A DNA stretch of 35,100 nt, taken from Alphaproteobacteria bacterium (GTDB taxonomy: Bacteria > Pseudomonadota > Alphaproteobacteria > UBA9219). The stretch spans positions 1-35,100 of the forward strand of contig JAGWIK010000020.1 of NCBI GenBank assembly GCA_028866275.1, in the 5' to 3' direction. A program made the translations under genes and the position numbers. The notes below the pieces were generated by a model. That model did no database searches, was not told where the DNA came from, and saw nothing but the letters and a program-made list of their open reading frames with translations. Shown here piece after piece: positions 3,276 through 30,416 of this stretch (position 1 is its first letter; the number at the start of each line of letters is the position of its first letter).

Positions 3276-3308
3276 ATCCTAGAGCCGGCAGCGTTAAATT
3301 CCTGTTAA
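3276..3308 (-). promoter_or_regulatory. CtrA-type promoter of the leftward pilin gene
   Basis: A perfect TTAA-N7-TTAA (3294-3308) matches the alphaproteobacterial CtrA box. On the minus strand it is followed after 12 bases by TAGGAT (3281-3276) as a -10. This puts the box over the -35 position, as in CtrA-activated promoters such as Caulobacter pilA. Confidence 0.6.
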
Positions 3309-3342
3309 GAACCTGTTTGCGGTTGCGCGGCGTGCCGCCGTT

Positions 3343-3375
3343 TTAATCAATTTTTTATGATGAAGCGGCTAGGGT
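3343..3375 (+). promoter_or_regulatory. near-consensus CtrA-type promoter of the rightward pilin gene
   Basis: TTAA-N7-TTTA (3343-3357) matches 7 of 8 positions of the CtrA box and is followed after 12 bases by TAGGGT (3370-3375), the same spacing as in the divergent pilin promoter. The pilin ATG is 38 bases further on. No standard -35 hexamer is seen, which fits activator dependence. Confidence 0.5.
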
Positions 3376-3413
3376 ATTTTGGGCGTCGCCGGATCATAGA
3401 CGGGTAGCTTGGC

Positions 3414-4070
3414 ATGAAACAGATGATGTATTTTCCACGCGCCGCGGACGGTAAGGAACGCGGGTTTACGCTGACCGAAATCGCCATCGTTCTGGGCGTC
3501 GTCGGCATCATCGTCGGCGGCATCTGGGCGGCGGCCGACAATGTCAGCGAAACGCGCAAAGAAAACGACGCGGTGGCGGAATTGCAGACGATTGCCCATA
3601 ATATGATGACTTTGATGGGCGGGCGCACCATTCCCCCACCGCCGACGGATAACGACATCACGGCGGCGATGATAACGGCCAATGTCATTCCCAGTTATTA
3701 TACTGATCAGATCGCAACTGCGGCCGCAGATAATCCGTGGGATAACGGTATTGCAACCGTCCACGCCAACAGGGGTTTTATTATTTATCGGATAGGCCCG
3801 ACGACCTTCCGCCTGTCTTTCTACAACACGACCTATGGCGGTTGCATTGCCCTGATTTTGGCGGCTACCGCCTGCCCGTTCGGGCAGCCCGAATGCCCTG
3901 TTGACGTCGTGCCCAATGACGGGGGCAGCGGCATCTATGGCCCCGGAACCACCAATTTACCGGGCACATGGACATCATGGGCGGGCATGACCGCGAGCGA
4001 AGCCAGCACATTATGCGCCATGAATCCGACGAACGGCGGTTCGATTGAATTCGATTACGCGACGCAATAA
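3414..4070 (+). CDS. type IV prepilin-like protein (PilS/T4b-like), rightward member of a divergent pair
   Basis: This 218-residue protein has a short leader ending KERG|FTLTEIAIVLGVVGIIVGG, with Gly before the cleavage site and Glu at mature position 5. It is clearly related to the divergent pilin through the shared FTLTEIAIVLG block and the same layout. NPWDNG at about residue 110 corresponds to the DPWGG motif of the other pilin, and it carries late Cys residues (CPFGQPEC, STLCAMNP). Likely role: subunit or minor component of a type IVb pilus or a pseudopilus. The start at ATG 3414 gives a normal leader of about 17 residues. Its stop overlaps the end of the convergent glycosyltransferase by 16 bp. 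Confidence 0.8.
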   Translation: MKQMMYFPRAADGKERGFTLTEIAIVLGVVGIIVGGIWAAADNVSETRKENDAVAELQTIAHNMMTLMGGRTIPPPPTDNDITAAMITANVIPSYYTDQIATAAADNPWDNGIATVHANRGFIIYRIGPTTFRLSFYNTTYGGCIALILAATACPFGQPECPVDVVPNDGGSGIYGPGTTNLPGTWTSWAGMTASEASTLCAMNPTNGGSIEFDYATQ

Positions 4071-5155
4071 TCAGGCGACCCGTTTTTGTAGAAATCCATC
4101 CATTGCCGCGTCACCGCTTCGCGGGTGTAGTCCTTGATATAAGCGGCGTAGCCCTGAGCGATGAGGGCGCGGCGCAGCGGTTCGTCGTCGAGCGCGCGGC
4201 GCAGGGCGCGGGCCAGCGCGTCGGCATCGTCGATGGGAACCAGCAGGCCCGTGACGCCGTCCTGAACATGCGCGGCCGGCCCTGCGCTGGCGCAGGCGAC
4301 AAGCGCCGTGCCCGCCGCCCAGGCTTCCAGAATGACCGTGCCGAAAGGTTCGTAGCGCGACGGCAGGACGCAGACATCCGCCGCGCGCAATAAAGCAGCG
4401 CGGTCGGTGCGCCAGCCCAGAAAACGCACCCGGTCGAGCACGCCGAGCGTTTTTGCCGTATTTTCCAGTTCGCGCCGCAACGGCCCGTCGCCCGCCAGCC
4501 ATGCCACGCAGTCGGGCAATCGGGTCAGCGCCTGCAAAAGCGTGTCGAGGCCTTTTTTCGGGTGCAGGCGCGACAGGGCGAGCAGGACTTTGACTTCGCG
4601 TTGCGTCGCCAATGTCGCGCGGTCGACCGGCGGCATCGGCGCGACGTCGGGAAAGGTGGGGATAAAATGGGCGTTTTGCGCGGGCACGCCGTTTTTGACC
4701 ATATGGGCGACGATATCGCGCGTGACGCCGACGAAGACGCCGCAGGATTTAAATTTCGACGGGTCGTAGTAGCCGCCGAACCAGGCAATTATGCGGGGGG
4801 CGCGACTGCTCTGCGGTATACCGGTTTCACGGGCTCCCCGCAACCGCGACTGCGCCAGGCTCTTAGGCACGAGGCTTGCCGCGCGGCGCATCCAGCAATG
4901 GATAATGTCGGGCTTTTCCCGTTTGATCAGCAACCGCAACAGTAATTTCTGCAAGGGCCGGAACGGCACGGCCAGCACGCGCGGCGCCATGCGGATGCCG
5001 GCGCGTTGCAATTCGGCAAAGCGCGGCGCGCGCGGCGACATCACCACGCATTGGTCGACGCCCTGCGCATGCAGGCTGAGCATCACGTCGGTGGAATAGG
5101 TTTCGGCCCCGCCTTGCGTTTCGCCGGCCATGATGTGGAGGATGCGCATGGCCAT
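4055..5155 (-). CDS. GT4-family glycosyltransferase next to lpxA
   Basis: This 366-residue GT-B protein has an N-terminal domain starting RILHIMAGETQGGAETY (glycine-rich acceptor loop) and a C-terminal donor domain with ALSRLHPKKGLDTLLQAL, GDGPLRRELE, FLGWRTDRAALLRAADVCVLP and an E-x7-E-like stretch at YEPFGTVILEAWAAG. It lies 8 bp downstream of lpxA and follows fabZ-lpxA, the position where many proteobacteria carry lpxI/lpxB. It is GT4-like, however, not the GT19 fold of LpxB. An LPS-core or other surface-glycan role is inferred from context. ATG codons at 5155 and 5149 are both possible; the first is used. Confidence 0.85.
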   Translation of the reverse strand: MAMRILHIMAGETQGGAETYSTDVMLSLHAQGVDQCVVMSPRAPRFAELQRAGIRMAPRVLAVPFRPLQKLLLRLLIKREKPDIIHCWMRRAASLVPKSLAQSRLRGARETGIPQSSRAPRIIAWFGGYYDPSKFKSCGVFVGVTRDIVAHMVKNGVPAQNAHFIPTFPDVAPMPPVDRATLATQREVKVLLALSRLHPKKGLDTLLQALTRLPDCVAWLAGDGPLRRELENTAKTLGVLDRVRFLGWRTDRAALLRAADVCVLPSRYEPFGTVILEAWAAGTALVACASAGPAAHVQDGVTGLLVPIDDADALARALRRALDDEPLRRALIAQGYAAYIKDYTREAVTRQWMDFYKNGSPDYCVA

Positions 5156-5163
5156 GCCCCGTT

Positions 5164-5964
5164 TTATTCGTCGTCGCTTTTGGGCTGGCAGATCGGGCGG
5201 TCGGACGCGGCGCGGATAAAGTCGACGATCTGGGCGACCTGTGCCTGATTTTTATAATGCGCGGCGGTTTCTTCGATACGTTCGGCCAGCGTGCCTTCGG
5301 GTGCGAACAGCATGCGGTAGGCGCTGCGCAGCGCGCGGACGTCTTCGCGCGTGAAGCCGCGCCGTTCGAGCCCGACCATGTTAAGCCCCGCCAGATGGGC
5401 GCGTTCGCCCTTCACAAGGCCGAACGGGATGACGTCTTTTTCCACGCCCGACATGCCGCCGATAATGGCGAACGACCCGATGCGCACGAATTGATGCACC
5501 GCCGACAGCCCGCCGACGATGACGAAGTCGCCGAGCGTGACATGGCCGGCCAGTGTGGCGTTATTGGCCAGCACGACGTTATTGCCGACATGGCAATCAT
5601 GCGCGACATGCGCGCCGACCATGAACAGCCCGTTATCGCCGACGCGCGTGGCCATGCCGCCGCCTTCGGTTCCGGGGTTCATCGTCACCTGTTCGCGGAT
5701 CTGGTTGTTTTTGCCGATGTCGAGCGTCGAGGGTTCGTTTTTGAATTTCAGATCCTGCGGCCGCAGGCCGAGCGAGGCGAAGGGATAGACCACCGTGCCT
5801 TCGCCCACCGTCGTGCGCCCGCCGACCACGACATGCGACACCAGCCGCACGCGGTCGCCGAGCCGGACGTCCGCGCCGACGGTGCAGAATGGGCCGATAT
5901 CGACATCGGCGCCAAGTTGCGCGGCGGGGTCGACGACGGCGGTGGGGTGAATGGATACGGTCAT
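5164..5964 (-). CDS. lpxA: acyl-ACP--UDP-N-acetylglucosamine O-acyltransferase
   Basis: LpxA catalyses the first step of lipid A synthesis, transferring a 3-hydroxyacyl chain from ACP to UDP-GlcNAc in the cytoplasm. The 266 residues are the normal length. The N-terminal left-handed beta-helix is visible as hexapeptide repeats (for example IHPTAVVDPAAQLGADVDIG). The catalytic His is in the AHVAHDCHVG motif (His122). The C-terminal helical domain contains LNMVGLERRGFTREDVRALR. It lies 15 bp downstream of fabZ in the same direction, a standard pairing because both use 3-hydroxyacyl-ACP. Confidence 0.96.
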   Translation of the reverse strand: MTVSIHPTAVVDPAAQLGADVDIGPFCTVGADVRLGDRVRLVSHVVVGGRTTVGEGTVVYPFASLGLRPQDLKFKNEPSTLDIGKNNQIREQVTMNPGTEGGGMATRVGDNGLFMVGAHVAHDCHVGNNVVLANNATLAGHVTLGDFVIVGGLSAVHQFVRIGSFAIIGGMSGVEKDVIPFGLVKGERAHLAGLNMVGLERRGFTREDVRALRSAYRMLFAPEGTLAERIEETAAHYKNQAQVAQIVDFIRAASDRPICQPKSDDE

Positions 5965-5979
5965 GGATTGATTTTTTCC

Positions 5980-6465
5980 TTAGGCCGAAGCTTCGGGAGA
6001 GACGTCGTCGCGCGGCACCAGCATGGCGGTATAGGTGGCTTCGGCGCAGAGTTTGTCGCCGACGAAGGCCTGGCCTTCGAATTTCCACACATTGCCGCGG
6101 GTGCGTTCTTTTTTCACCTTGATATGCAGCGTGTCGCCGGGAACCACCGGATGGCGGAAGCGCGCGCCGTCGATCGTCATGAAATAGACGATATGGGTGT
6201 CGCAGGTGACGCCGTCGAGCGAAGCGACGACCAAAGTGGCCGAGGTTTGCGCCATGGCTTCGACGATCAGGACGCCGGGCATGATGGGATGGCCGGGGAA
6301 ATGGCCCTGAAACACGGGTTCGTTGGCGGACACGTTTTTGATGCCGGTGCAGCTTTCGCCCGGCACGATGTCGATGACGCGGTCGATCAGCAACATGGGG
6401 TAACGGTGCGGGATGCGCGCCATGATACCGGCGATGTCGAGCGAGGTCAGGGTCTTTTTGGTCAT
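5980..6465 (-). CDS. fabZ: 3-hydroxyacyl-ACP dehydratase FabZ
   Basis: FabZ dehydrates 3-hydroxyacyl-ACP in fatty acid elongation. The 161-residue hot-dog-fold protein has the signature [20 protein letters not shown] with catalytic His55 and Glu69, and the N-terminal [17 protein letters not shown] Shine-Dalgarno lies about 8 bases before the ATG at 6465. lpxD is not upstream; flgD is, across a 102-bp gap, so the usual lpxD-fabZ-lpxA order is not kept. The gap holds a small perfect hairpin (CGCTAC-tt-GTAGCG, 6486-6499) that may separate this unit from the flagellar operon. Confidence 0.96.
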
Positions 6466-6567
6466 GAAGGGGCTCCGGAGTTAATCGCTACTTGTAGCGC
6501 AACTGGAGCCGGTCGTTCAAGAGACGGTTTGGGGCGTTTTTACAGCCTGGGAGTTTTTACGGCGCGT

Positions 6568-7314
6568 TTACCCCGTCACGACCGCCGTGGTCGAGGCCGG
6601 CTTTGTGGTCGAGGTATAAACGGCATCGATCGCGGAAGAAGACACCGAAAGCCCGTCGGCGATCAGATTGAGCGTGCCGTTGCTGTTGCTTTGCACGCCT
6701 GTGACCTTGGCCAGCGCCAGATAATCCGTCGGGGTTATGGTTTTGCCGCTGGAATCGGTCGCGGTGACGACGAAGCTGTAACTGCCGTCGGACAGGGTGT
6801 TGCCGCTGGCGTCGGTTCCGTTCCATGTGATGTAGTTCGTGCCTGACGACGTGCCCCCGGCGAAGGACGCGACCTGATTGCCGCTGGAATCATAGACCGT
6901 GACGGTGGAGCTGGCCGCGGCGCTGGGCAGCGTATAGCCGATTTCGGCGCTGCTGCTTTGCAGGGAAAAATCCGCCGGGGACGAGCTGGTTGCCGATTCG
7001 ACGTAATTACCGATATAGCCGACCCCCGTGGCCAGCGCATTGGCGCTTTCCGCCGAGACCAGCGATTTGAGGTCGGTATCGGTATTGATCTGTTGCTGCA
7101 CGCTTTCCATCGTCACCAGTTCCTGCGTGTACTGGTTGGGGTCGGTGGCGTTGGTGGGGTCCTGGTTCTGCAGCTGGGTGGTCAGGATTTTCAGATATTG
7201 CGTGAAGTCGAGGCCGAGCGCGGCGCTGGAGCTGCTGGAACTGGACGAGCTGCTGGAGCTGGAACTGGAGCTGGAAGAGCTGCCGCTGGTCGGCGTTGTG
7301 GCGGAAATCGTCAT
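6568..7314 (-). CDS. flgD: flagellar hook assembly scaffold FlgD
   Basis: FlgD caps the growing hook and is needed for FlgE polymerisation outside the cell. The 248 residues begin with a secretion-type N-terminus interrupted by a tract of about 20 serines (residues 9-28). Then comes the conserved FlgD block LDFTQYLKILTTQLQNQDPTNATD, with QYTQELVTMESVQQQ. The C-terminal half carries the beta-rich FlgD Ig/tudor-like region (VYDSSGNQVASF, NGTDASGNTLSDGSYSF). It starts 11 bp after the fliK stop and is the last flagellar gene of the leftward operon. The poly-Ser tract is unusual and reads as AGC/TCC codon repeats. Confidence 0.92.
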   Translation of the reverse strand: MTISATTPTSGSSSSSSSSSSSSSSSSSSSAALGLDFTQYLKILTTQLQNQDPTNATDPNQYTQELVTMESVQQQINTDTDLKSLVSAESANALATGVGYIGNYVESATSSSPADFSLQSSSAEIGYTLPSAAASSTVTVYDSSGNQVASFAGGTSSGTNYITWNGTDASGNTLSDGSYSFVVTATDSSGKTITPTDYLALAKVTGVQSNSNGTLNLIADGLSVSSSAIDAVYTSTTKPASTTAVVTG

Positions 7315-7325
7315 GATTTATTTCC

Positions 7326-9446
7326 TTATACCCGAATGTTCACGCCGCGCGGCGAGATGTAATAGGTTTCGGTCGTTGCCGTCACGGCGGATACCCCGCC
7401 CGCGTCGTCGTCGCCCGCAAAAAGATTTGCAGGAACCGTGCCATTGCCCCCGTTATTGGCCGTGCCGTTATTGTTGGCGAAGGCCTGTCCCGATTGGTTG
7501 CCCTGCTGGCCCGACGGGTCGCCGAGATTGAATTGCAGGCTGCCCGGATCGGCGCGCAGCCCGGCGTCTTGCAGGGCGCGTTCGAGATTGCGCGAGTCCT
7601 TTTGCAGCAGGGCCAGCGTTTGCGGATTGTCGGCGGTGACCGTGCCTTGCACCTTGCCGTCGGAACCGACATCGAGCTTGACCGTGATTTTCCCCAGTTC
7701 GGCGGGGTGAAGCTGCAGCGACATCTGGTCGTTGCCGTTTTTGACGCCGCGGTTGAGTTGCAGAACGACCTGATCGAGGAACGGCGCGGCATTCGAGGCC
7801 GACGATTCCGACATTGATTGCGAGGCCGCGAGTTGCGACGCGAAACTGGCGGCGCCCGTCCCCGCGGCATTATTGGCGCCCGGCGTCAGGCGCAGATCGA
7901 TGCCCGCCGCCGCACCGTTATTCGCGGCGGCGTTCTGGCCGTTATCGCCCTGCCCGTTCTGGTTTGATGTCGTGCTGTCGCCGCCTGTCGCAGCTGCCAC
8001 GAACAGCGACGGCGCGGATGTGTTTTGCGGCGCGGGCGAAGACGGGCCGGACGGCGTGGCGGCCAGCAAAGACGGGTTTTGCGTGGCATCCGTTGCCGGT
8101 TTGACGGCAGGATTGGCGGCAGGATTGGCCGCCGGCGTCTGGGCAGACGTCGTGGCGGATGCGGACGAAGCCGTCGCCGGAGATTGCACGGCGGCGGCTT
8201 CGGTCAATGCGGCGTCTTGTTTTTTCAGTTGCGCCAGCGCGGTGCGCAGACGCGCTTCGAGATCGGCCAGACTGGATGAATCGGTATTCGACGCGGCGGT
8301 TGCCGTGTTGGTTTTCGCCGACGCGGTGGCGGCGGCGGTAAGGGTCGTGGCGACCGCCGAGGCTGCCTTAAGCGTGGCGGCGAGGTTTTGCATCGCGTCG
8401 CCGCCTGATTGCCGGTCGGCCTGTTGCAACAGCGCGAGCAGTTTTTTCAGCGCGTCCGCGCCGGAACCGGATGATGCATCGGTATTTGTTGCCGCCACGG
8501 CGGCAGATTGGGAATCGGACTGCGCCGCCGCGGTCGTTGGCGCCGTGGCGTTGGCGCCGCCGGTCAGGGCCGCAAGCGCCGCCGCCAGCGCGGCCAGCCC
8601 CTGATTGAGATTTTGATTCTGGCCGGCGGGGTCTGTCGCGGCCGCGGCGCCGGTTGGCGCGCCGCCGGACGTCGCGGTTTTCGTTTGCGTCGTTGCCGTT
8701 TGCAGATTCTTGATCATATCCTGAACCAGCGCCAGCCATTGCGCCAGAAGCGAGGCAAGCGATGTGGTGTCCGACGACGAGGATGTGCTGTCGGATGCGG
8801 CGGAGGAAGCGTCGGACGCCGCCGAGGAAGATGTATCGGTTGCCGTCGTGCCGGATCGGGTCGATGCGTTTTGTTGCGACGCGGTGGATTCGTTTCCGTT
8901 TTTGTCGTTGCTTTTTGTCGATGAATCCGTTGCCGGCGGCGGCGCGGGGGCATTTGCGGCCGATGCGGCGTTCGCCGTATCGGCGGGCGGCGCGGCGGTA
9001 TTGTCGGCGGTTTGCGTTGTGGTTTGAGTGTCGGCGGCGGGGCCGGTTGTAGTGGAATCGGCGGCGGGGCTGGTTGCAGCGGAATTGGATGAAGTGGCTG
9101 TGTTGGATGTATTGGCGTCGGCGTTGTGACGCAAGGTTGTGATGGCTTGCTGCAACGCGCCGGACAGGCCGTTGAGATTCTGCAACAGCGCATCGCCGGA
9201 AGAGGATGAAGATGATGATGACGAATTGGAATCCGTCGTTGACGACCAAACCATTGGCGACGCCGCGCCCGTTGACGCGGTCGATGTATCACCCTGCAAC
9301 AGCAGAGCCGAAAAAGCCTGTTGCGTGGCCGCGTCCTGTGTCGCGCCGAACAGGCTGTCCATTTGCGACAGCAATCCGCCCAGAGACGCGGACGCCGTCG
9401 CTCCGAATGAAGCCAGCAGGTCGGTCGATGGGGCGTTGGTTGTCAT
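7326..9446 (-). CDS. fliK: flagellar hook-length control protein FliK
   Basis: FliK measures hook length and triggers the export switch. The 706 residues consist mostly of a low-complexity Ala/Ser/Thr/Gln region (about 1-540) with serine runs, as in ruler-type FliK proteins. The conserved C-terminal Flg_hook domain is at about 560-650: VVLQLNRGVKNGNDQMSLQL, HPAELGKITVKLDV, TVTADNPQTLALLQKDSRNL and LERALQDAGLRAD. It lies between the flgN-like gene (10-bp gap) and flgD. At over 700 residues it is long for the family, which may reflect linker expansion. Confidence 0.9.
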   Translation of the reverse strand: MTTNAPSTDLLASFGATASASLGGLLSQMDSLFGATQDAATQQAFSALLLQGDTSTASTGAASPMVWSSTTDSNSSSSSSSSSGDALLQNLNGLSGALQQAITTLRHNADANTSNTATSSNSAATSPAADSTTTGPAADTQTTTQTADNTAAPPADTANAASAANAPAPPPATDSSTKSNDKNGNESTASQQNASTRSGTTATDTSSSAASDASSAASDSTSSSSDTTSLASLLAQWLALVQDMIKNLQTATTQTKTATSGGAPTGAAAATDPAGQNQNLNQGLAALAAALAALTGGANATAPTTAAAQSDSQSAAVAATNTDASSGSGADALKKLLALLQQADRQSGGDAMQNLAATLKAASAVATTLTAAATASAKTNTATAASNTDSSSLADLEARLRTALAQLKKQDAALTEAAAVQSPATASSASATTSAQTPAANPAANPAVKPATDATQNPSLLAATPSGPSSPAPQNTSAPSLFVAAATGGDSTTSNQNGQGDNGQNAAANNGAAAGIDLRLTPGANNAAGTGAASFASQLAASQSMSESSASNAAPFLDQVVLQLNRGVKNGNDQMSLQLHPAELGKITVKLDVGSDGKVQGTVTADNPQTLALLQKDSRNLERALQDAGLRADPGSLQFNLGDPSGQQGNQSGQAFANNNGTANNGGNGTVPANLFAGDDDAGGVSAVTATTETYYISPRGVNIRV

Positions 9447-9455
9447 GATGCTACC

Positions 9456-9935
9456 TTAGACCGAACGGCTGACAGCCACGGGCGGGCAGACCGGGCTGTA
9501 GATGCCGAGCTGCAGATGCGATTTGGCCGCGTTTTTATAGGGTTGTTTGTCCAGCACCTTGGTTTTGATCATGGCCATGATGTTCTGGATCAATTGCTGC
9601 GACGCGCCGATGGCGGCGCGCAGGGCGCGGGCGTTATCCGCCGCGGCGCGCGACAATGCCTTAGCCGTGTCGCGCAGAACCGTGCGGGCGTCTTCGGACA
9701 GGGTGGCGAAAAGCTGGGGCTGGTCGGCGAGCGCCTTGAGATTGGCGCGATAGTCGTTGGCGAGTTTCTGTTTGTATTTCAAGATGGCCGGATGTTCGTC
9801 GACGCGCCGTTTGATGACGATGTCGATTTCCTGAATCAACACGCGCGTCAGTTCTTCCATCAAAGCCACGGTGGCGGTGATGATTTTTGGCGCGCCTTCG
9901 AGAAGCCGCGCGGTTTTTTTATTGGACGGCGACAT
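9456..9935 (-). CDS. FlgN/FlbY-like flagellar protein
   Basis: This 159-residue, mostly helical protein contains ATVALMEELTRVLIQEIDIV and HPAILKYKQKLANDYRANLK, the pattern of FlgN-type export chaperones (long amphipathic helices). It overlaps the 3' end of the flgJ-like gene by 17 bp. In Caulobacter, as I recall, flgI is followed by cheL and flbY, and this gene occupies the flbY place. A chaperone role for late hook or filament-junction substrates is inferred. ATG 9935 is chosen because the longer frame upstream is the antiparallel shadow of flgJ; MSPSNKK gives a normal start. Confidence 0.6.
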   Translation of the reverse strand: MSPSNKKTARLLEGAPKIITATVALMEELTRVLIQEIDIVIKRRVDEHPAILKYKQKLANDYRANLKALADQPQLFATLSEDARTVLRDTAKALSRAAADNARALRAAIGASQQLIQNIMAMIKTKVLDKQPYKNAAKSHLQLGIYSPVCPPVAVSRSV

Positions 9936-10410
9936 GGGCGTCTCCTTCTGCGGACGGTTCCGCCGGCGCGGCGGCGAGGGTGGCGTTAGCGTTGCGGGCA
10001 TAGGCCGCGGCGGCGGACGCGGCGGCAGACGGCGCGGTTTTACGGCCGCGCAGCGCGCCGCCAGCCTGTTCCTGCGACCGCAGCATTTCCGCCTTGATTT
10101 GCGGTTCGATATGCAACGCGTCGGTTTTGGCGATGATTTTGCCGTAAGCCTGCAACAGGAACGACCGCATGACTTCTTCGCCGTGGCCGCCGCCAAAGGT
10201 TTTGTCGACCTGCATCCCGTCGAACATCGGCTGCAACATTTGCGTGGCGAACATGGCTTCGAAATTTTGCGCGGTGCTGTCGATTTGCGCCGACGTCGCG
10301 CCCGCCCCCATTTTCAGCGACAGGGCGGCGGGCGAGTCCAGCGCGCCCGCCAGCATCGCGGGGTCGGTCATCGCGCCGCCGGGCGCGGCAAGGGATGAAA
10401 GGGCGTCCAT
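9919..10410 (-). CDS. flgJ: rod-binding protein, FlgJ N-domain type (CheL-like)
   Basis: This 163-residue protein contains only the rod-binding half of FlgJ: AQNFEAMFATQMLQPMFDGM, then FGGGHGEEVMRSFLLQAYGKIIA. The muramidase domain found in enteric FlgJ is absent, as is normal in alphaproteobacteria. It probably caps and guides rod assembly through the periplasm. The start ATG overlaps the stop of the preceding 36-codon ORF as TAATG. The C-terminus (about 115-163) is Ala-rich and overlaps the next gene. Confidence 0.88.
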   Translation of the reverse strand: MDALSSLAAPGGAMTDPAMLAGALDSPAALSLKMGAGATSAQIDSTAQNFEAMFATQMLQPMFDGMQVDKTFGGGHGEEVMRSFLLQAYGKIIAKTDALHIEPQIKAEMLRSQEQAGGALRGRKTAPSAAASAAAAYARNANATLAAAPAEPSAEGDAHVAVQ

Positions 10411-10520
10411 TACAGAATCTCCGGATCGGCTTGCGCCCGCCGTTGCGGTTGCGGCGCCCCTGAGGGGCGGCGCAGAGCGGTCGCGGACACATACAAAGCG
10501 GCGGGAAGAGCGGCGGCCAT
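10410..10520 (-). CDS. 36-residue ORF between flgI and flgJ, probably a duplication by-product
   Basis: The frame runs from ATG 10520 to TAA 10410, linked by TAATG overlaps to flgI upstream and flgJ downstream. Its last residues, QADPEIL, nearly repeat the FlgI C-terminus QADLEIL. At DNA level about 30 bases around the stop are repeated 110 bp away (CCATTACAGAATCTCC at 10407-10422 and 10517-10532). The simplest reading is that the flgI/flgJ junction was partly duplicated, creating a short coupled ORF that keeps translation running into flgJ. The remaining residues are Ala/Arg/Pro-rich and match nothing I know. Function unknown. Confidence 0.35.
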   Translation of the reverse strand: MAAALPAALYVSATALRRPSGAPQPQRRAQADPEIL

Positions 10521-11710
10521 TACAGAATCTCCAGATCGGCTTGCAAGGCGCCCGCCGCCTTGATCGATTGAAGGATATCGATCATGTCGCGCGGCCCGAT
10601 GCCCAGCGCGTTCAGGCTTTGCACCAGATCCTGCAGCGACACGCCGGTGCGCAGCATCGCCAGTTTGTTGCCGCTGTCTTCGCTGACGCTGATGCTGGAA
10701 CGGGGAACCACCTGCGTGGTGCCGCCGGTCGACAGCGGATTGGGTTGCGATACCTGCGGCGTTTCGTTGATTTTAATCGTCAGGTTGCCCTGCGCGATCG
10801 CCACCGTATTGATATGCACATCCTGACCCATGACGATGATGCCGGATTGCTGGTCGATGACGACGCGCGCGACTTCGTCGGGCACGACGTCGAGCTGTTC
10901 GATGCCGGTCATGAAGCCGACGACGTCGCCGCGGTCGGTATCGGGGATATGCACCGCGACGGTGGCGCTGTCTTGCGCGTCGGCGATGGGGGCGCCTTCA
11001 TGTTTATTGATGATATCGGCGATGCGCTGCGCCGTGGTAAAGTCGGGATTGCGCAGGGACAGATGCATGACCTTGAGGTCGGCAAGGCGGAAATCGATTT
11101 CGCGTTCCACAATGGCGCCGTCGGTGATGCGGCCCGATGTCGGCACGCCTTTGGTCACGCTGGATCCGCTTTGGCCGGACGCGCTGTAGCCGGAACCGAC
11201 GGAACCCTGCGCCACGGCGTAAACCTCGCCGTCGGCGCCCTGCAACGGCGTGACCAGCAGCGTGCCGCCTTGCAGGCTTTTGGCGTCGCCCATCGCCGAC
11301 ACCACGACGTCGATGCGCGACCCTTGCGCGGAAAAAGGCGGCAGCGTCGCCGTGACCATGACGGCGGCGATGTCCTTGGTTTTAATGGTGGTGAAGTCGC
11401 TGCTGGAATTGATGCCCAGCCGTTCCAGCATGCCGATCAGGCTGCGTTCGGTGAAAGGTGCGTTGATCAGCGAGTCGCCGGTGCCGTTAAGCCCGACCAC
11501 GAGGCCGTAGCCGACCAGCATATTGTCGCGCACGCCTTCGAAATTGACGATGTCCTTGATGCGCGATGCGGCGTGGGCGGCGGAAAAGGGAGCGAAAACC
11601 AGGAGTGTCATGACGACCGCCGCAAAAAGGCGGGAGAACCGGCGGACGCGTGCGAACTTTGCCGCCGGCTGGCGGGATGAAAAAAAATTAAAAGAAAACA
11701 AGTCGTACAT
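10520..11710 (-). CDS. flgI: flagellar P-ring protein FlgI
   Basis: FlgI forms the periplasmic P ring around the rod. The 396 residues include a long signal region (hydrophobic core MTLLVFAPFSAAHA, cleavage near residue 48). The conserved mature start is SRIKDIVNFEGVRDNMLVGYGLVVGLNGTGD, visible as IKDI, GVR and GYGLVVGLNGTGD. Family motifs continue with FTERSLIGMLERLGI, KDIAAVMVTATLPPF, GSRIDVVVSAMGDA and GTLLVTPLQGADG. The C-terminus has GIGPRDMIDILQSIKAAGAL. A sigma-54-type promoter lies 32 bases upstream. flgH is not visible here. Confidence 0.95.
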   Translation of the reverse strand: MYDLFSFNFFSSRQPAAKFARVRRFSRLFAAVVMTLLVFAPFSAAHAASRIKDIVNFEGVRDNMLVGYGLVVGLNGTGDSLINAPFTERSLIGMLERLGINSSSDFTTIKTKDIAAVMVTATLPPFSAQGSRIDVVVSAMGDAKSLQGGTLLVTPLQGADGEVYAVAQGSVGSGYSASGQSGSSVTKGVPTSGRITDGAIVEREIDFRLADLKVMHLSLRNPDFTTAQRIADIINKHEGAPIADAQDSATVAVHIPDTDRGDVVGFMTGIEQLDVVPDEVARVVIDQQSGIIVMGQDVHINTVAIAQGNLTIKINETPQVSQPNPLSTGGTTQVVPRSSISVSEDSGNKLAMLRTGVSLQDLVQSLNALGIGPRDMIDILQSIKAAGALQADLEIL

Positions 11711-11741
11711 GACAGCCCCTGGCCTTCCTGCGGGCCTGCCA

Positions 11742-11757
11742 TGCGAGAGTCGTGCCA
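11742..11757 (-). promoter_or_regulatory. sigma-54 promoter of flgI
   Basis: The minus strand reads TGGCAC-N5-TCGCA, a strong match to the sigma-54 -24/-12 consensus (TGGCAC-N5-TTGCA). The start of transcription would fall near 11731, about 20 bases before the flgI ATG. Mid-class flagellar genes of Caulobacter use sigma-54, so the fit in function is good. Confidence 0.7.
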
Positions 11758-11822
11758 ACCGCGCCGGACGGCGGATTCATTTTGTAATTCATTGGCGACG
11801 CTTGGTTTTTATCATGACTTTG

Positions 11823-11860
11823 ACCCTGTCTTTGGGCTAGGATACAAACCAGGACAGGGT
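11823..11860. promoter_or_regulatory. inverted repeat over the likely fliX promoter
   Basis: ACCCTGTC (11823-11830) and GACAGGGT (11853-11860) are perfect inverted copies whose centres are 30 bp apart. A possible -10, TAGGAT (11838-11843), lies between them, with a weak -35 near 11814-11820. This could be an operator for a dimeric regulator of fliX; the factor is unknown. Confidence 0.4.
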
Positions 11861-11911
11861 ATTATTTGCCGGGTCGGTAAAGTTATCCGAAGACAGGTTT
11901 GCGAGGAAAGC

Positions 11912-12331
11912 GTGATCGACAAAATCGACGGATTGGGCCAGATACGAACCCCCCAGCCTATCAAGCGTCCCGCCAAGACGGAGGGGAGCGGTTCGACCAG
12001 TTTTGCCAAACATATCGACGAAGACAGCGAAAGCGCGGCGACCGGCGGCGTGATGTCGAGCAACGCCGTCAGCGGCATTCTGGGCGTGCAGGAAGTCGAT
12101 GATGCGCTGGCCCATGCGTCCAAGGGCAAGGCGCGCGCCAACGACATTCTGGACAAGTTGGAAGATTTGCGTTTGCAATTGCTGACCGGCACGGTGTCGC
12201 GCGACAAATTGATGCAATTGAGCCAGATGGTCAATTCGCGCCGCGCGCAGGTCAAAGACCCCCGGCTGGCCGCCCTGCTGGACGATATCGATTTGCGCGC
12301 GCAGGTCGAATTGGCGAAATATGCCCGTTAG
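11912..12331 (+). CDS. fliX: flagellar assembly regulator FliX
   Basis: FliX is an alphaproteobacterial protein that couples early basal-body assembly to FlbD-dependent sigma-54 transcription. The 139 residues match the family in size and in their C-terminal half: ILDKLEDLRLQLLTGTVSRDKL, VKDPRLAALLDDIDLRAQVELAKYAR, where the DPRL and VELAK segments are characteristic. The start is GTG 11912, preceded by GAGGAAAG. The longer ATG at 11741 would run through the promoter region. It is divergent from flgI, as in Caulobacter. Its stop abuts the stop of rimI. Confidence 0.88.
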   Translation: MIDKIDGLGQIRTPQPIKRPAKTEGSGSTSFAKHIDEDSESAATGGVMSSNAVSGILGVQEVDDALAHASKGKARANDILDKLEDLRLQLLTGTVSRDKLMQLSQMVNSRRAQVKDPRLAALLDDIDLRAQVELAKYAR

Positions 12332-16410: not shown

Positions 16411-17300
16411 TGTCGTCGCAAGAACAAAAAACGCAGGCCGAAGCGTGGTTCCGCACTTTGCGCGACCAAATCTGCGTGGCATTCGAGGCGATTGAAGACG
16501 CGTTGCAGGGCACGGCGCATGCCGGTTTGCCCGCCGGGCGGTTCGAACGCACACCGTGGACGCGGGACAACGACGCAGGCGCAGAGCGGTCGCGTCCGAT
16601 ATTGAAGGGCGGCGGCGAAATATCCATCCTGCGCGGCCGCGTGTTTGAAAAAGTCGGGGTCAATATATCGACCGTTTACGGCACGTTTTCCGAGGAATTC
16701 CGCAAGCAGATTCCGGGCGCGGTGGAAACCGGCACGTTTTGGGCGTCGGGCATCAGCCTGGTCGCCCATATGCGCAACCCGCATGTGCCCGCCGTGCATA
16801 TGAACACGCGCCATATCGTCACCGGCAAGTCGTGGTTCGGCGGCGGCGCGGATCTGACGCCGATGTTTTTCGGCACGCCGCAGAGCGAAGACGACAAGCG
16901 CGTTTTCCATGACGCGCTGCGCGCCGCGTGCGACAGGCACGGCCCCGATTATTACGCGCGTTTTTCCAAATGGTGCGACGAGTATTTTTTCCTGCCCCAT
17001 CGCAACGAGGCGCGCGGCGTCGGCGGGATTTTTTACGATTATCTGGAAAATGACTGGGACGCCGATTTCGCCTTTACCCGCGATGTCGGAATGGCGTTTC
17101 TGGATATTTATCCGCGCATCGTGCGCGCCCATATGGAAAAAGAATGGACGCCGTCCGACCGCGCGCATCAATTGGCGCGGCGCGGGCGTTATGTCGAATT
17201 TAATTTGTTATATGATCGCGGCACGACGTTCGGGTTGAAGACCGGCGGCAACACCGAGGCGATTTTGATGTCGATGCCGCCCGAAGTAACCTGGGCGTAG
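16410..17300 (+). CDS. hemF: oxygen-dependent coproporphyrinogen III oxidase
   Basis: HemF converts coproporphyrinogen III to protoporphyrinogen IX using oxygen, late in haem synthesis. The 296 residues show the family blocks [64 protein letters not shown] and the C-terminal [33 protein letters not shown] 16410 overlaps the fzlA stop (TAATG), giving tight translational coupling. The reading frame is open further upstream, but that part is a shadow of fzlA. It ends 4 bp from the convergent unknown gene. Confidence 0.95.
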
Positions 17301-23690: not shown

Positions 23691-23765
23691 ATCGTCATCC
23701 CGGCGCAAGCCGGGATCCAGAAATAAAGCTAAGGACTGGATACCGGCTTGCGCCGGGATGACGAT
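23691..23765. repeat. REP-like double palindrome, copy 2
   Basis: Two 30-base arms (23691-23720 and 23736-23765) are inverted copies with one mismatch, separated by a 15-base AT-rich spacer. Each arm also contains its own palindromic core CCGGCGCAAGCCGG. This is the classic layout of a dispersed REP/BIME-type element. Confidence 0.85.
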
Positions 23766-23788
23766 GGCTCTGGTGGACATGATCTTTT

Positions 23789-24079: not shown

Positions 24080-24107
24080 TTTCTTTCCAAAAAGAAAGAT
24101 TTTCAAT

Positions 24108-24137
24108 CTGGGTCCCGGCTTGCGCCGGGATGACGAT
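24108..24137. repeat. REP-like single arm, copy 3
   Basis: Thirty bases (CTGGGTCCCGGCTTGCGCCG and the following GGATGACGAT) match the right arm of the element at 23736-23765 at 28 of 30 positions, in the same orientation. It lies between the GIY-YIG pseudogene and the ssb stop, ending 5 bp from the latter. Confidence 0.8.
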
Positions 24138-24142
24138 CACTT

Positions 24143-24613: not shown

Positions 24614-24704
24614 GGGATGTCCTTTTGTGTAAGAGTCGCGCGATTTTACCCCGCCGCGACGCAGAGTCTAGCGCATTCTGCGCGGCCAGCTATCCGGTTG
24701 CAAT

Positions 24705-25625: not shown

Positions 25626-25671
25626 CAATCAAACCATTGGTTGTTAAGGTTTTCGCATGCGCGAAACCCTG

Positions 25672-25700
25672 AACCTAGCCGTTTCGTCGCGCGGTGACAA
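25672..25700 (-). promoter_or_regulatory. probable accD promoter
   Basis: The minus strand has TTGTCA (25700-25695; 5 of 6 to TTGACA), 17 bases, then TAGGTT (25677-25672). The ATG is 46 bases further on. The promoter lies wholly between the repeat element (25718-26012) and accD, so accD need not depend on trp transcription. Confidence 0.5.
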
Positions 25701-25717
25701 TTCCCATGTCTCAATCG

Positions 25718-26012
25718 TTAGGGTCAGGACCTATTAATTTTAAGGATTTCTGTTTGCAAGAGAAGGAAAATCGGCCAGGCGACGAGCGCCGCCGTACTTT
25801 ATGTACGGCAAGCGAAGTCAACCCCGTGTCGGGGCACGGGGCAGGCTGCCGCCGTTTTCCTTCTCCTGCAAACCCGCAGGGCGCGGCCACAATCTTCGGC
25901 GATGCGTTTGAAAAACTTGACTGTACGCCCAGTACAGCCTGCGTTTTTCAAACGCATCGCCAAAAATTCTGACCAGCGCAGAAACCTTGAAATTAATAGG
26001 TCCTGACCCTAA
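25718..26012. mobile_element. 295-bp non-coding element with 28-bp terminal inverted repeats (MITE-like)
   Basis: The ends, 25718-25745 and 25985-26012, are inverted repeats matching at 27 of 28 positions (outer sequence TTAGGGTCAGGACCTATTAA). GGGTC is preceded by TA at each end, consistent with a TA target duplication of the mariner/IS630 kind. Inside, 25752-25770 pairs with 25855-25873 (18 of 19) and encloses two 7-bp hairpins (25791-25809, 25822-25841). A perfect 19-bp stem joins 25898-25916 to 25943-25961, capped by CTGTAC/GTACAG. There is no plausible coding frame for a conserved protein. It is probably a non-autonomous element mobilised in trans; a structured RNA is an alternative. Confidence 0.75.
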
Positions 26013-26827
26013 TTTCCGTGCGCGGCATCGGCCAGCGTGGCGACGAAGCCCAGCACATCGGCCGTAAGCCCTTGTTTGGGTTTGTTATCCCCGTCAAGAT
26101 TGGCGGCGATGCGGTTGACGATGGCGCTGCCCACCACCACCCCGTCGGCCACGGCGGCGATGTCGTGCGCCTGTTCAGGCGTGGTGATGCCGAACCCCAC
26201 CGCGACGGGCAGGTTGGTATGCGGGCGGATGGCGGCGACGGCGCGGGCCACAGGTTCGGCGGCGGCCTGTTTGGAGCCGGTGATGCCGGCAACGGAGACA
26301 TAGTACAAAAAGCCCCCTGCCCCGTTCAGAATTGTGGCGAGGCGATTTTCGTCCGTGGTGGGGGCGACCAGGCGCACGATGTCGATGCCGTGTTTTTGCG
26401 CCGCGGCGCGCAGGGTGGAATCTTCTTCGGGCGGCAGGTCGGCGATGATAAGCCCGTCGACGCCCGCGTTTTGCGCGTCGGCGGCGAAAGCGTCGATGCC
26501 ATAGGACAGAATGGGGTTGATATAGCCCATCAGGATGATCGGCGTTTCGGCGTCGGCACGGCGGAACGCGGCCACGGCGGCGATGATTTTCTTCATCGTG
26601 ATGCCGGCGGCGAAGGCGCGCAGATTGGCGCGTTCGATGGCGGGGCCATCGGCCATCGGGTCGCTGAACGGCATGCCGATTTCGATGAGGTCGCATCCGG
26701 CCTGCGGCAGGCCCGCCAGAATATGCGCGAAAGTTTCAAGATCGGGGTCGCCCGCGCTGATAAAGGGGATGAAGGCTTTGCGGCCGGCGGCCCTGAGCGC
26801 GGCGAAGCGTTTTTCGATGCGGGTCAT
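26009..26827 (-). CDS. trpA: tryptophan synthase alpha chain
   Basis: TrpA cleaves indole-3-glycerol phosphate to indole, which is channelled to TrpB. The 272-residue TIM barrel has catalytic Glu49 and Asp60 in [20 protein letters not shown], the loop [21 protein letters not shown] and the phosphate-binding [10 protein letters not shown] and [11 protein letters not shown] 26827 overlaps the trpB stop by 4 bases (ATGA), giving coupled translation of the two subunits. Its last codons are GGA AAT TAG, and the stop lies in the terminal repeat of the element at 25718-26012. The insertion may therefore have replaced the native C-terminus or stop. Confidence 0.96.
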
Positions 26828-28035
26828 AGCGTCACCCCCAGCCGGCCGGCGATGGTATAGATGTCCTTGTCGCCGCGGCCCGACAGATTGACCACAAGCA
26901 GGTTGTCGCGCGGCAGGGCCGGCGCGATTTTTTCCAGATAAGCCAGCGCGTGCGCGGATTCCAGCGCGGGCAGGATGCCTTCCTTTTTCGCGCATAGTTG
27001 AAACGCGGCCACGGCTTCGTCGTCGGTCGCGGGCACGTAATTCACGCGTTTCCGGTCGAACAGCCACGCATGTTCGGGGCCGATGCCGGGATAGTCGAGC
27101 CCCGCCGAGATCGAATGGGCTTCCTGAATCTGGCCGTCGTCATTTTGCAGGAAATAGCTGCGCATGCCGTGCAGCACGCCGTCGCGCCCGCCCGCCAGCG
27201 ACGCCGCGTGTTTATCCGTGTTCAGCCCGTGGCCCGCGGCTTCGACCGCGAACATGTTGACCGACGGTTCGTTGAGGAATTCGTAAAACAGGCCCATGGC
27301 GTTCGACCCGCCGCCGACACAGGCGACCAGCGTGTCGGGCAGCCGGCCTTCGGCTTCCATCATTTGCGCGCGGGTTTCGCGGCCGATGATCGATTGAAAG
27401 TCGCGCACCATCATGGGGTACGGGTGCGGGCCGCCGACGGTGCCGATGATGTAAAAAGTATCGTGAACATTGGCGACCCAGTCGCGCAACGCCCCGTTCA
27501 TCGCGTCTTTGAGCGAGCGCGAGCCGGATGTTACCGCTTTGACTTCCGCGCCCAGCAGGCGCATGCGGAAGACGTTGGGTTTTTGCCGTTCGATGTCGAG
27601 TTCGCCCATGTAAATGGTGCAGGGCAGGTTGAACAATGCCGCGACGGTGGCCGTCGCCACGCCATGTTGCCCCGCGCCGGTTTCGGCGATGATGCGGGTT
27701 TTGCCCATGCGTTTGGCGAGCAATATCTGCCCCATGCAATGGTTGATTTTATGCGCACCGGTGTGATTCAGTTCTTCGCGTTTCAGGTAGATTTTCGCGC
27801 CGCCGAAATGGTCGGTCAGCCGTTGCGCGTAATAAAGCGGCGACGGGCGGCCGACATAGTGTTTCAGATAGTAATCGAGTTCGGTTTGAAAGGCCGGGTC
27901 GGCCTTGGCCTGTTCATAGGCCTGTTCCACCGCAAGGATCAGCGGCATCAGCGTTTCGGCGACATAGCGCCCGCCATAGGGGCCGAAATGGCCGTGCGCG
28001 TCGGGTTGGGCGGTGTAGCTGTTAAGTTTGGTCAT
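26824..28035 (-). CDS. trpB: tryptophan synthase beta chain
   Basis: TrpB is the PLP enzyme that joins indole and serine into tryptophan. The 403 residues have [15 protein letters not shown] near the N-terminus, the PLP lysine in [15 protein letters not shown] (Lys96), [18 protein letters not shown] and the phosphate-binding loop [29 protein letters not shown] and NLSGRGDKD complete the signature. It is the standard TrpB1 type. It is coupled to trpA through ATGA. The upstream neighbour is the Dot/Icm-like icmJ (52-bp gap), with trpF not visible in the window. Confidence 0.97.
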
Positions 28036-28087
28036 GGCATCACGGGAATGGAAAAAGAAAGAAGGGTGGCCGCGCCGCGAAAAGGAT

Positions 28088-28738
28088 TTACGCGACTTTG
28101 GCGAATAAATCGCGCCACGATGCGGCGGGGATTTTGCCGAACGGGCCTTGGGGCGAGCGCCAGAATGTGACCATTTGCGGGAAGCCGTTCACGTCGCCGC
28201 CCTTGCCGCGCACCATATATTTGTCGTTGGGCAACAGGCGGATGCCGTCGAGTTTTTTGGCCGCCGCCGCGCTTTCTTTGTCGGTCAGGTTTTCATGCAG
28301 CACGGTGGCCAGCACCAAAGGATCATCCGTGCCGAGGCGTTTTTTGGCTTCGGCGCGGCGGGCGGCCAGCGCGTCGAGCGCGCGCGCGGCGGCATCGGCC
28401 ACGTCGGTTTGGTCTTCGTCATCGCGGGCGATATAGGCGGCGCGGGCGATGTGGTTGAGTTCGGCCTGCGAAATTTCAGGCAGCCAGATCAGAATGCCGC
28501 CGCCCATAAGGCCGGCGCGTTCCAGCGCCACGACCTGTTCGCAAAAAGTGCAGGCGGTGACATAGCCGTCCGATGTCGGCACGACGCGTTGATAATGCGT
28601 AGACGAAAAACCGCAGAACCGGCAGGTATAGCCGTCGCGGTTGAGGATTCTTTCGGTTTCGGGCTTCGACGGCGGCCTGCCGCCGCCCTTGGCGTCGGGC
28701 TTTCGTCCGACGCCAAGGGTTAGAGGGAGGAAAGACAA
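28088..28738 (-). CDS. icmJ: IcmJ/DotN-like type IVB secretion protein
   Basis: This 216-residue protein begins with LPLTLGV, followed by a zinc-site region with Cys39-x2-Cys42 (CRFCGF) and Cys63-x2-Cys66 (CTFCEQ), then [20 protein letters not shown]. This series matches my recollection of Legionella IcmJ/DotN, an HNH-like zinc protein of the type IV coupling complex that helps load substrates. The likely start is TTG 28738, nine bases after the stop of the IcmD-like gene, since no ATG or GTG precedes the conserved LPLTLGV. The middle part (about 100-150) is Ala/Asp-rich. It is cotranscribed with the IcmD-like gene. Confidence 0.72.
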
Positions 28739-28747
28739 AACAGCGCC

Positions 28748-29143
28748 TTACATGCCGCCGATATTGGTGAAGCTGGCACCACCGCCGGTCACGCTGACAT
28801 TGTTAAGAGTACCGGTCATGGTCGAGGCGACGGCAGGCGCGGCAAGGAAAGCCCCGCCAGCCGCGAGTTTGCCGAGAGCCGGGCCGAGTTTGTTCTGGCC
28901 GGGGTTATCGGCATGTTTCTTGGCATCGGAAATGCCGACGACGACCATGACAGTGCCCAGGGCATAGCTGGCATAGCTGGCGAATTTGACAAACGGATCC
29001 ATAACGCCGTTTTGCGCGGCAGAGCCGACAGCGGCGAGATTCTGGGCCAGCGCATCGGCCGGGACGATGGCCGTGAAAGTGGCCGCAATCATCAAGCCGG
29101 TCAACACATCGTTGAGCAGTTCTTGTTTCATGATGTTCTTCAT
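28748..29143 (-). CDS. icmD: IcmD/DotP-like type IVB secretion membrane protein
   Basis: This 131-residue protein, close to the 132 of Legionella IcmD as I recall it, has a signal or first membrane helix at about 14-33. A second hydrophobic unit spans about 55-106: FASYASYALGTVMVVVGISD, KKHADNPGQNKLGPALGKLA, then GGAFLAAPAVAS. The Y-x2-G-...-G-...-K-x-H-x-D-N-P-x-Q pattern is that of IcmD/DotP. ATG 29143 is chosen because a GGGAG site lies nine bases upstream; the longer frame to 29203 starts with an unlikely peptide. It probably forms part of the inner-membrane or periplasmic apparatus. A perfect CtrA box lies 76 bases upstream. Confidence 0.7.
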   Translation of the reverse strand: MKNIMKQELLNDVLTGLMIAATFTAIVPADALAQNLAAVGSAAQNGVMDPFVKFASYASYALGTVMVVVGISDAKKHADNPGQNKLGPALGKLAAGGAFLAAPAVASTMTGTLNNVSVTGGGASFTNIGGM

Positions 29144-29202
29144 CTGTCTTCTCCCTTGGGGGTTCAAGTTAAATCGATAAAATTTAATGTTATTTAGGTT
29201 CA

Positions 29203-29233
29203 ATTTAAGCCTTGTTTGTTAACGACCGCTTAA
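29203..29233 (-). promoter_or_regulatory. CtrA-box promoter of the icmD-like gene
   Basis: TTAA-CGACCGC-TTAA (29219-29233) is a perfect CtrA half-site pair with N7 spacing. A weak -10, TTAAAT (29208-29203), follows after 10 bases on the minus strand. The ATG is about 60 bases beyond. The box lies between the dotE-like and icmD-like genes. Confidence 0.55.
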
Positions 29234-29313
29234 TTTGCACCTTCGTCCCAATGCTATCCGGATTCATATTTCTTGGCAATATGCGTTTTATTTTCAGGCG
29301 TTTTTGTGGGGTA

Positions 29314-29329
29314 GATCCTGACCCTAATT
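29314..29329 (-). repeat. solo copy of the MITE end at a second gene's stop codon
   Basis: The minus strand reads AATTAGGGTCAGGATC, differing at one base from the trpA-side end of the element at 25718-26012 (AATTAGGGTCAGGACC). In both places the TAG is the stop codon of the gene that ends there, and Asn (AAT) is the last residue. No partner end is seen nearby, so this is a relic or a shared short motif. Confidence 0.5.
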
Positions 29330-30304
29330 AAACAGCTGCGTCCCGAAAGTCGAATTCATGATCTCGAGGAACGAAAATACATTAATGGCCAGCACGCCGC
29401 CGACGATATGGGTGATGCCCTGCGCCATGGTGACATTGCCGCCGCCTTCGACGACTTTTTTCATCACCAGCCAGCCGCGCACGAAAGCGATAACGCCGAT
29501 GATCTGGACAAAGGTGAGCGCGGCGGTCACCGCCGTCTGGAACTGCGCCGACGCGCCGCCCGCCAGCGATGCGGCGTAGGACCAGTTGATGACGCTGGAG
29601 GTTCCCAGCGTGGTGTCGCCAAAAACCGACGCCAGCATCACGTTAAGATTATCGCCGATTGTCATCAGCAATGCGCCAAAGACGATGTTGGTGAGGATGC
29701 TGTGAACGGAATAGGTCCGGGCATCGATGCCGTGCTTGGATGCCTTGACGAGGCCGTTGACGACCATGAAAAGCCCGGCGACAATCGCAATAAGGGAGAC
29801 AAGGCTGATCAGCGGCGCTTTGATATTGCCGACGAAATTCGCCAACATGACGTCGAGCGTCGATGCCCCGCCGGTCATGCCCGGCGCGCCGCACACCAAA
29901 GATCCGCCCGAAGCCGATGCGCCGTAGATGCTTGCGATGACGCAGTCAATCACGCTCGGCAAGGCCAGGAGACACGCGCCCCCAAGCCACAGCATGAGAG
30001 GCCGTGCGAGGGAATTTTCAGTCGGGCGGTCCGTATGAAGCCGCAGATGATGGATGCCGCGGACGACGCAAAACACGCCCGCCACATAGGCCGCATACTG
30101 AAAAATAAAAGCGAATGCCTTGGTATTGGCAAAAGCGTCGCAGAACATGTCGCCCAGCGAGGCGGCGTCATAAGTCGCCGAGCCCGAGGCAACACCTGCC
30201 GCGCTTTGAGCAAAAGCCAGGTCGCCGGACGCGAAATAAATCGCCGCCGCCGCAAGAACCGTCAGGGCGGGAAAGGCGTTTTTTGTAAAAACATTCTTAA
30301 ACAA
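29324..30304 (-). CDS. IcmC/DotE-like membrane protein with an N-terminal IcmD-like module
   Basis: This 326-residue protein has a signal-like helix (about 11-33) and six or seven further hydrophobic segments. Residues 69-120 (QYAAYVAGVFCVVRGIHHLR, HTDRPTENSLARPLMLWLGG) align with residues 55-106 of the IcmD-like neighbour. The C-terminal half (about 150-326) has FVQIIGVIAFVRGWLVMKKV and ITHIVGGVLAINVFSFLEIM, the pattern of IcmC/DotE. It therefore looks like a fusion of two related type IVB modules (inference). The start is TTG 30304, with AGGGG upstream; no ATG precedes the signal helix. It is controlled by a CtrA-box promoter. Confidence 0.68.
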   Translation of the reverse strand: MFKNVFTKNAFPALTVLAAAAIYFASGDLAFAQSAAGVASGSATYDAASLGDMFCDAFANTKAFAFIFQYAAYVAGVFCVVRGIHHLRLHTDRPTENSLARPLMLWLGGACLLALPSVIDCVIASIYGASASGGSLVCGAPGMTGGASTLDVMLANFVGNIKAPLISLVSLIAIVAGLFMVVNGLVKASKHGIDARTYSVHSILTNIVFGALLMTIGDNLNVMLASVFGDTTLGTSSVINWSYAASLAGGASAQFQTAVTAALTFVQIIGVIAFVRGWLVMKKVVEGGGNVTMAQGITHIVGGVLAINVFSFLEIMNSTFGTQLFN

Positions 30305-30383
30305 TGACTTATACCCCTTTGACGGGCGGTTTGGTGCCGGTTCCGTCGATGCGGCAGATGTTCCTTTTTACACTTCTGAGGGT

Positions 30384-30416
30384 ATTTTGCCAATAAAGTA
30401 ATTAAAAAGCTTTTAA
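30384..30416 (-). promoter_or_regulatory. CtrA-box promoter of the IcmC-like gene
   Basis: TTAA-AAAGCTT-TTAA (30402-30416) is a perfect CtrA box within a larger palindrome (AATTAAAA-AGC-TTTTAATT, 30400-30418). On the minus strand, after 12 bases, CAAAAT (30389-30384) can serve as -10. The alternative is a sigma-70 promoter TTGGCA-N17-TAAAAA (30393-30365). The AT-rich palindrome could also terminate the upstream lpt operon. Confidence 0.55.

Follow-up and report, generated by a model that had tools for sequence, protein, structure and literature searches.

Candidate CtrA boxes at pilin and Dot/Icm-like promoters suggest joint CtrA control in an alphaproteobacterial genome

In Caulobacter, the regulator CtrA controls the pilin gene pilA, and the Caulobacter pilin is of the Flp kind. 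Legionella and Coxiella have the best-known Dot/Icm secretion systems, whose icm/dot genes are, according to the titles of papers on them, regulated by CpxR and PmrA. According to excerpts of one report, type IV secretion system (T4SS) genes resembling Legionella icm genes and the ctrA gene both rise in a single mutant of Phaeobacter piscinae, and the authors offer the speculation that such traits are connected by a CtrA phosphorelay network (PMC9942592). An excerpted account of Dinoroseobacter shibae places CtrA and quorum sensing in one network with flagella and gene transfer agents (PMC6473078). Here, we analyzed a 35,100-nucleotide stretch of DNA, which we call the window, from an alphaproteobacterium of the UBA9219 lineage (GenBank assembly GCA_028866275.1, contig JAGWIK010000020.1, positions 1 to 35,100). 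In this window, candidate CtrA boxes consisting of two TTAA half sites separated by seven bases (TTAA-N7-TTAA) precede two type IV pilin-like genes and the icmD-like and icmC-like genes of a putative type IVB (Dot/Icm-type) secretion system.

We consider it probable, at roughly 80%, that these boxes are CtrA sites and that CtrA would activate the pilin genes, at least icmD-icmJ and icmC among the dot/icm operons, and genes for the flagellum, motility, and chemotaxis. A reading of the window from its letters alone (the sequence-only reading) had placed perfect boxes at 3294-3308, 29219-29233, and 30402-30416 and a 7-of-8 site at 3343-3357, and a scan of the window recovered all four. The gene coordinates agreed with its claim that each site precedes a gene transcribed away from it, and the sites are as follows.

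3294-3308, minus strand: perfect CtrA-type full box of the minus-strand pilin; -10-like TAGGAT at 3281-3276, gap 12.
3343-3357, plus strand: 7-of-8 CtrA-type box of the plus-strand pilin; -10-like TAGGGT at 3370-3375, gap 12.
29219-29233, minus strand: perfect CtrA-type full box of the icmD-icmJ operon; -10-like TAAATT, gap 11.
30402-30416, minus strand: perfect CtrA-type full box of icmC; -10-like CAAAAT, gap 12.

The distance from the box is 75 bp to the icmD ATG and 97 bp to the called TTG start of icmC. The -10-like hexamers had been proposed at a gap of 12 bases in three cases, which was borne out, and at a gap of 10 for icmD, which is better read as 11 since that column is kept in relatives. 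The further statement that no such site lies elsewhere in the window held for perfect sites but not for 7-of-8 sites, three more of which were found at 17189 (within a coproporphyrinogen-oxidase-like gene), 29194, and 30286.

Shuffling the window gave a mean of 0.12 perfect boxes, and none of 100 shuffles reached the observed three. The genome-average density (41 sites in 2.19 Mb) predicts about 0.66 per window, so the excess is mild and the force of the argument rests on spacing, promoter geometry, and conservation. Matches with at most one mismatch numbered seven in the window against 3.3 expected, a chance-level count by which alone the site at 3343-3357 means nothing.

The boxes before icmD and icmC were well conserved within the genus. 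We collected relatives by an IcmD search, skipping weak icmD matches (E above 1e-6) and short icmC matches; loci L048 to L071 came largely from the same genomes as the G set and were counted once. Eight of nine same-genus relatives had a perfect icmD box, beginning 87 to 99 bp before the gene, and seven of the eight with sequence upstream of icmC had a perfect icmC box, the eighth having a 7-of-8 site. Any other spacing from 2 to 13 gave at most two matches each in the same 250 bp. These boxes are probably held by selection, because IcmD is only 48 to 60% identical in these relatives and the seven spacer bases differ, although genomes of one genus, having a common ancestor, do not count as independent samples. 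When the sequences were aligned without using the box as an anchor, the box and the -10 hexamer still fell into register. For the pilins, we scanned 37 frames in the 30 best-match loci and dropped two with less than 300 bp upstream. A perfect N7 box was found within 300 bp in nine of the remaining 35, compared with zero to two at each other spacing from 3 to 12. Both window pilins are among the nine and share one perfect box, so the nine matches represent eight boxes. The pilins of G003 (L207) had no perfect box.

Across the genome, TTAA pairs at spacings of 4 to 10 numbered 112, of which 41 had the N7 spacing, whereas the other six spacings averaged about 12 (p=3.8e-9). The sequence-only reading had named a density equal to that of random intergenic DNA as grounds for giving it up; N7 boxes were instead denser genome-wide than control spacings. 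The raw count proves nothing, as the control pattern AATT-N7-AATT occurs 35 times versus 41 for TTAA-N7-TTAA, and the comparison among TTAA spacings alone is informative. The N7 count exceeded N6 and N8 combined (41 versus 27), a ratio of 3.0 to the N6/N8 mean. The ratio was 2.2 in nine same-genus genomes (415 N7 versus 381 N6 plus N8, nine of nine above the N6/N8 mean) and 1.6 in 14 genomes from other genera of the family (13 of 14 above it). For 26 genomes elsewhere in the class, 18 were above the mean and the pooled ratio was 0.96, a sum dominated by AT-rich genomes. This lineage thus prefers the N7 spacing, and roughly two in three boxes of the genome are in excess of background.

The position of the boxes relative to putative promoters fits CtrA activation. 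In excerpts of a Caulobacter study, full CtrA boxes begin near the -35 region, and the one in the activated ctrA P2 promoter has its 5' base at -39 (PMC4287350). With a box of 15 bases starting at -39, 12 bases remain before a -10 hexamer at -12, so a gap of 12 is the geometry of a CtrA-activated promoter. We examined intergenic boxes with a start 15 to 260 bp downstream, counting both directions for divergent genes. TAnnnT followed the box at a gap of 11 to 12 in 15 of 43 orientations, versus about 0.7 at each other gap from 0 to 44; two of the 15 are window boxes (those of the minus-strand pilin and icmD). Judged by these -10-like hexamers, the 5' end of the box falls near -39. We also observed a lesser TAnnnT peak at gap 17 (5/43), which might mark a second promoter class.

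The regulator itself is encoded in this genome, as the sequence-only reading required. The CtrA ortholog on contig C9 is 72% identical over 224 of 225 residues to a Caulobacter CtrA query, and it scored 424.8 bits against NCBIfam model NF045991 (cut-off 350). In its carboxy-terminal DNA-binding part, it hardly differs from Caulobacter CtrA. The genome also encodes a ChpT-like phosphotransferase (PF10090), whose gene has a perfect box 78 bp upstream. The ctrA promoter had no perfect box upstream, just two 7-of-8 CtrA-type sites 36 to 74 bp before the gene (L016:2209-2246), which would fit autoregulation.

To identify the genes beside the boxes, we ran Pfam on 40 genes neighboring N7 sites outside the window and on 14 control neighbors. 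Box neighbors included fliL, motA, a methyl-accepting chemotaxis protein, chpT, a GGDEF protein, a bactofilin, and a DNA ligase. A second pilin pair, on contig C43, also had a box, as did a flgB-like rod protein gene that diverges from an FlhB-like gene and a pilus secretin whose nearest profiles, MshL and PilN, were matched below their cut-offs. By our own sorting, 11 of the 41 N7 sites (three of them in the window) lie by motility, pilus, ChpT, or dot/icm genes.

The genes served by the window boxes, and the flagellar genes between the pilins and the icm genes, are as follows.

2654-3277, minus strand: type IV pilin-like protein (N_methyl, GFTLTE), with its likely start at 3247.
3414-4070, plus strand: type IV pilin-like protein (N_methyl, GFTLTE), with profile matches.
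28748-29143, minus strand: icmD/dotP-like small membrane protein, named for its position next to icmJ, an arrangement that recurs in relatives.
28088-28738, minus strand: icmJ/dotN-like protein; NF038221 at 85.3 bits, under the cut-off of 100.
29324-30304, minus strand: icmC/dotE-like membrane protein; NF033883 (IncI1 TraQ) at 50 bits, under the cut-off of 80.
6568-12331, no strand assigned: flagellar neighborhood, with flgD, fliK, flgI, and fliX over cut-off.

Both pilins scored over the cut-offs of PF07963 and TIGR02532, the profiles for the prepilin peptidase motif with its N-terminal hydrophobic helix. The true start of the minus-strand pilin is probably the ATG at 3247, because its -10 hexamer overlaps the first ATG of the open reading frame (ORF), at 3277. 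The icmD-like protein had no match in Pfam or NCBIfam, and the gene order of icmC, icmD, and icmJ recurs in relatives. In some relatives, two or three tandem icmD copies lie between icmC and icmJ (L027:1495-2295; L032:1501-2891). The flagellar neighborhood also holds weak flgN-like and rod-binding-like ORFs, both below cut-off, and its genes (flgD, fliK, flgI, and fliX) are without a perfect box in the window.

Further dot/icm operons lie on other contigs. Contig C28 carries icmK (PF12293, 240.8 bits), icmE (PF03743, 48.4 bits against a cut-off of 35), and a weakly icmG-like ORF. Their promoter has the 7-of-8 site TAAAC-N6-TTAA, kept in 15 of 24 genomes (our own, 8 of the same genus, and 6 others of the same family). 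Contig C46 carries two icmL genes (PF11393, 166.4 and 131.4 bits, over cut-off) in an operon with a perfect box. At the edge of contig C9, dotC (PF16932, 255.4 bits) is flanked by dotD- and dotB-like ORFs named by position. The genome encodes the families of a type IVB core complex (icmK/dotH, icmE/dotG, and dotC) as well as icmL/dotI. Of the five dot/icm operons located, perfect boxes precede three, an imperfect but conserved box precedes a fourth, and no box was found at the fifth. As separate observations, the first gene before the two icmL genes is a short ORF that is weakly GcrA-like (L131:15192-15683; PF07750 at 17.8 bits, cut-off 26.9), and the icmK (L130:9523-9545) and icmC (window 30380-30401, minus strand) promoters share, genus-wide, a CTTT-AT-TGG-CAAAA-like stretch past the box, which may be an unusual -10 or the site of a second regulator.

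Several observations weigh against CtrA control of these genes. Outside the genus, perfect boxes, either ahead of icmD or in the icmC-icmD interval, were found in only 7 of 20 loci, several of which are cut by contig ends, and in nine genomes from other families of the order, the N7 ratio was 1.15, with five of nine above the mean. Judging from the control spacings, some 12 of the 41 sites would be background, so that an individual site may be fortuitous. Placement is weak evidence by itself, with 31 of 41 N7 sites lying in intergenic DNA within 260 bp upstream of a start as against 12 of 24 control sites (Fisher p=0.056; the controls are the 28 non-N7 sites among those listed, minus four close to an N7 site). 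Sites wholly inside called genes, as judged by a home-made codon-score caller, numbered 5 of 41 for N7 and 5 of 24 for controls, or 3 of 41 and 5 of 24 with a 10-base margin; two of the five N7 sites are at gene ends (L002 and L009), and one further site overlaps a gene by four bases. Some box-linked genes are housekeeping genes (hemE-like, citrate synthase, groES, and ligA), and the target kinds counted above occur at 2 of 24 control sites (fliL and a cheA-like gene; p=0.11), so the target list supports the CtrA case but does not prove it. As to the other dot/icm operons, that of icmK has an imperfect site. The box of the icmL operon, located 225 to 327 bp ahead of its first gene, could serve a divergent M23 peptidase gene; no perfect box was found at the icmL loci of 20 relatives, and the TTAA-N7-TTGA seen there in seven of the 20 (G011, G014, G015, G017, G018, G029, and G031) is suggestive only. 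No box was found in the 285 bases before the dotD-like ORF, up to the contig edge. The proposed search for boxes at other pil, dot, and icm promoters gave boxes at the second pilin pair, the pilus secretin, and the icmL operon, and none in those 285 bases before dotDCB.

One alternative is that the sites in the window arose by chance in promoter DNA rich in AT. It draws on the roughly 12 of 41 genomic sites expected from the control spacings, on the chance-level number of 7-of-8 sites, and on a placement not clearly different from that of controls. We reject it as highly improbable, since chance would have to produce perfect boxes before icmD and icmC in nearly all same-genus relatives with diverged spacers and other spacings nearly absent, a -10 hexamer at a gap of 11 to 12, and the N7 excess over control spacings. 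It is also unlikely, though less so, that another OmpR/PhoB-type regulator with a TTAA-type half site binds the boxes. The genome does encode six further full-length response regulators of this type, matching the Caulobacter CtrA query at 29 to 37% identity, and CtrA binding at the boxes is a prediction. However, the motif is the published CtrA full motif, as given in excerpts of the Caulobacter study (PMC4287350), the DNA-binding part of CtrA hardly departs from that of Caulobacter, and boxes precede the kinds of genes that CtrA targets (fliL, flgB-like, and chpT). A third possibility, which we hold to be quite unlikely, is that CtrA represses at these boxes or acts there regardless of cell stage, in which case no arming would be tied to a stage. 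According to the same excerpts, CtrA half sites that overlie the -10 are repressive in Caulobacter (PMC4287350), and timing cannot be read from sequence; the boxes here are at the activating distance and not over the -10.

We therefore favor activation by CtrA, and joint CtrA control of the pilins and the type IVB system, put forward in the sequence-only reading as something new, is supported as a prediction by the presence of ctrA, the spacing, the geometry, and the conservation. Phosphorylated CtrA, fed by a ChpT phosphorelay, would bind the full palindrome centered near -32, where it may stand in for a -35 element and recruit RNA polymerase to the -10 hexamer 11 to 12 bases downstream. The shared boxes thus suggest that the cell makes its pili, its flagellum, and its secretion machine at one stage of its life cycle, most likely a late predivisional or motile (attack-like) one. 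A more tentative idea, somewhat less likely than its opposite, is that one CtrA program arms the motile, attack-like cell of a predatory lineage with a flagellum, type IV pili, and a Dot/Icm-type machine, the cell-cycle circuit thereby being put to the service of predation or of contact with a host. That the window organism lives as a predator or attached to a host is a guess: excerpts of one paper report pT4SSi in seven marine Micavibrionales (PMC9418006), whereas those of the genome paper on Micavibrio aeruginosavorus ARL-13 state that evidence of type III and type IV systems was lacking and that flagellar and chemotaxis genes are on in the attack phase (PMC3189940).

If CtrA does control these genes, the assembly of a protein-injection machine would be written into the alphaproteobacterial cell-cycle circuit beside the flagellum and the pili. 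This would give a testable model for the switch between seeking and feeding stages in epibiotic or predatory alphaproteobacteria, and CtrA boxes would offer a handle on unknown parts of the program in uncultured genomes.

Direct CtrA control of a dot/icm system was not reported in the literature that we searched, although the phrase 'dot icm' may miss the form written with a slash. The Phaeobacter piscinae case differs from ours in being a correlation in one mutant with a plasmid-borne system, with no CtrA sites or direct control described in the excerpts of that report. In Dinoroseobacter shibae, the plasmid-borne T4SS is stated, in the excerpted text, to be induced by quorum sensing and to lie outside the CtrA phosphorelay (PMC6473078). 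Regulation of the pT4SSi of Micavibrionales is not discussed in the excerpts of the paper describing it (PMC9418006). The genome shares with the Dot/Icm systems of Legionella and Coxiella the icmK, icmE, icmL, and dotC families over cut-off and, on weaker evidence, icmD-, icmJ-, icmC-, and icmG-like genes and DotD- and DotB-like proteins named by position. Its Dot/Icm-like genes are spread over four contigs and, unlike those regulated by CpxR and PmrA, have boxes that point to CtrA. The closest parallel to the regulation is the CtrA regulon of Caulobacter crescentus, with the same box, the same distance to the -10, flagellar and pilin targets, and counterparts of CtrA and ChpT here. The pilins of the window, in contrast, are of the N-methyl GFTLTE kind, with the MshL/PilN-like secretin bearing weakly on a type IVb pilin subclass, and the boxes reach type IVB secretion genes.

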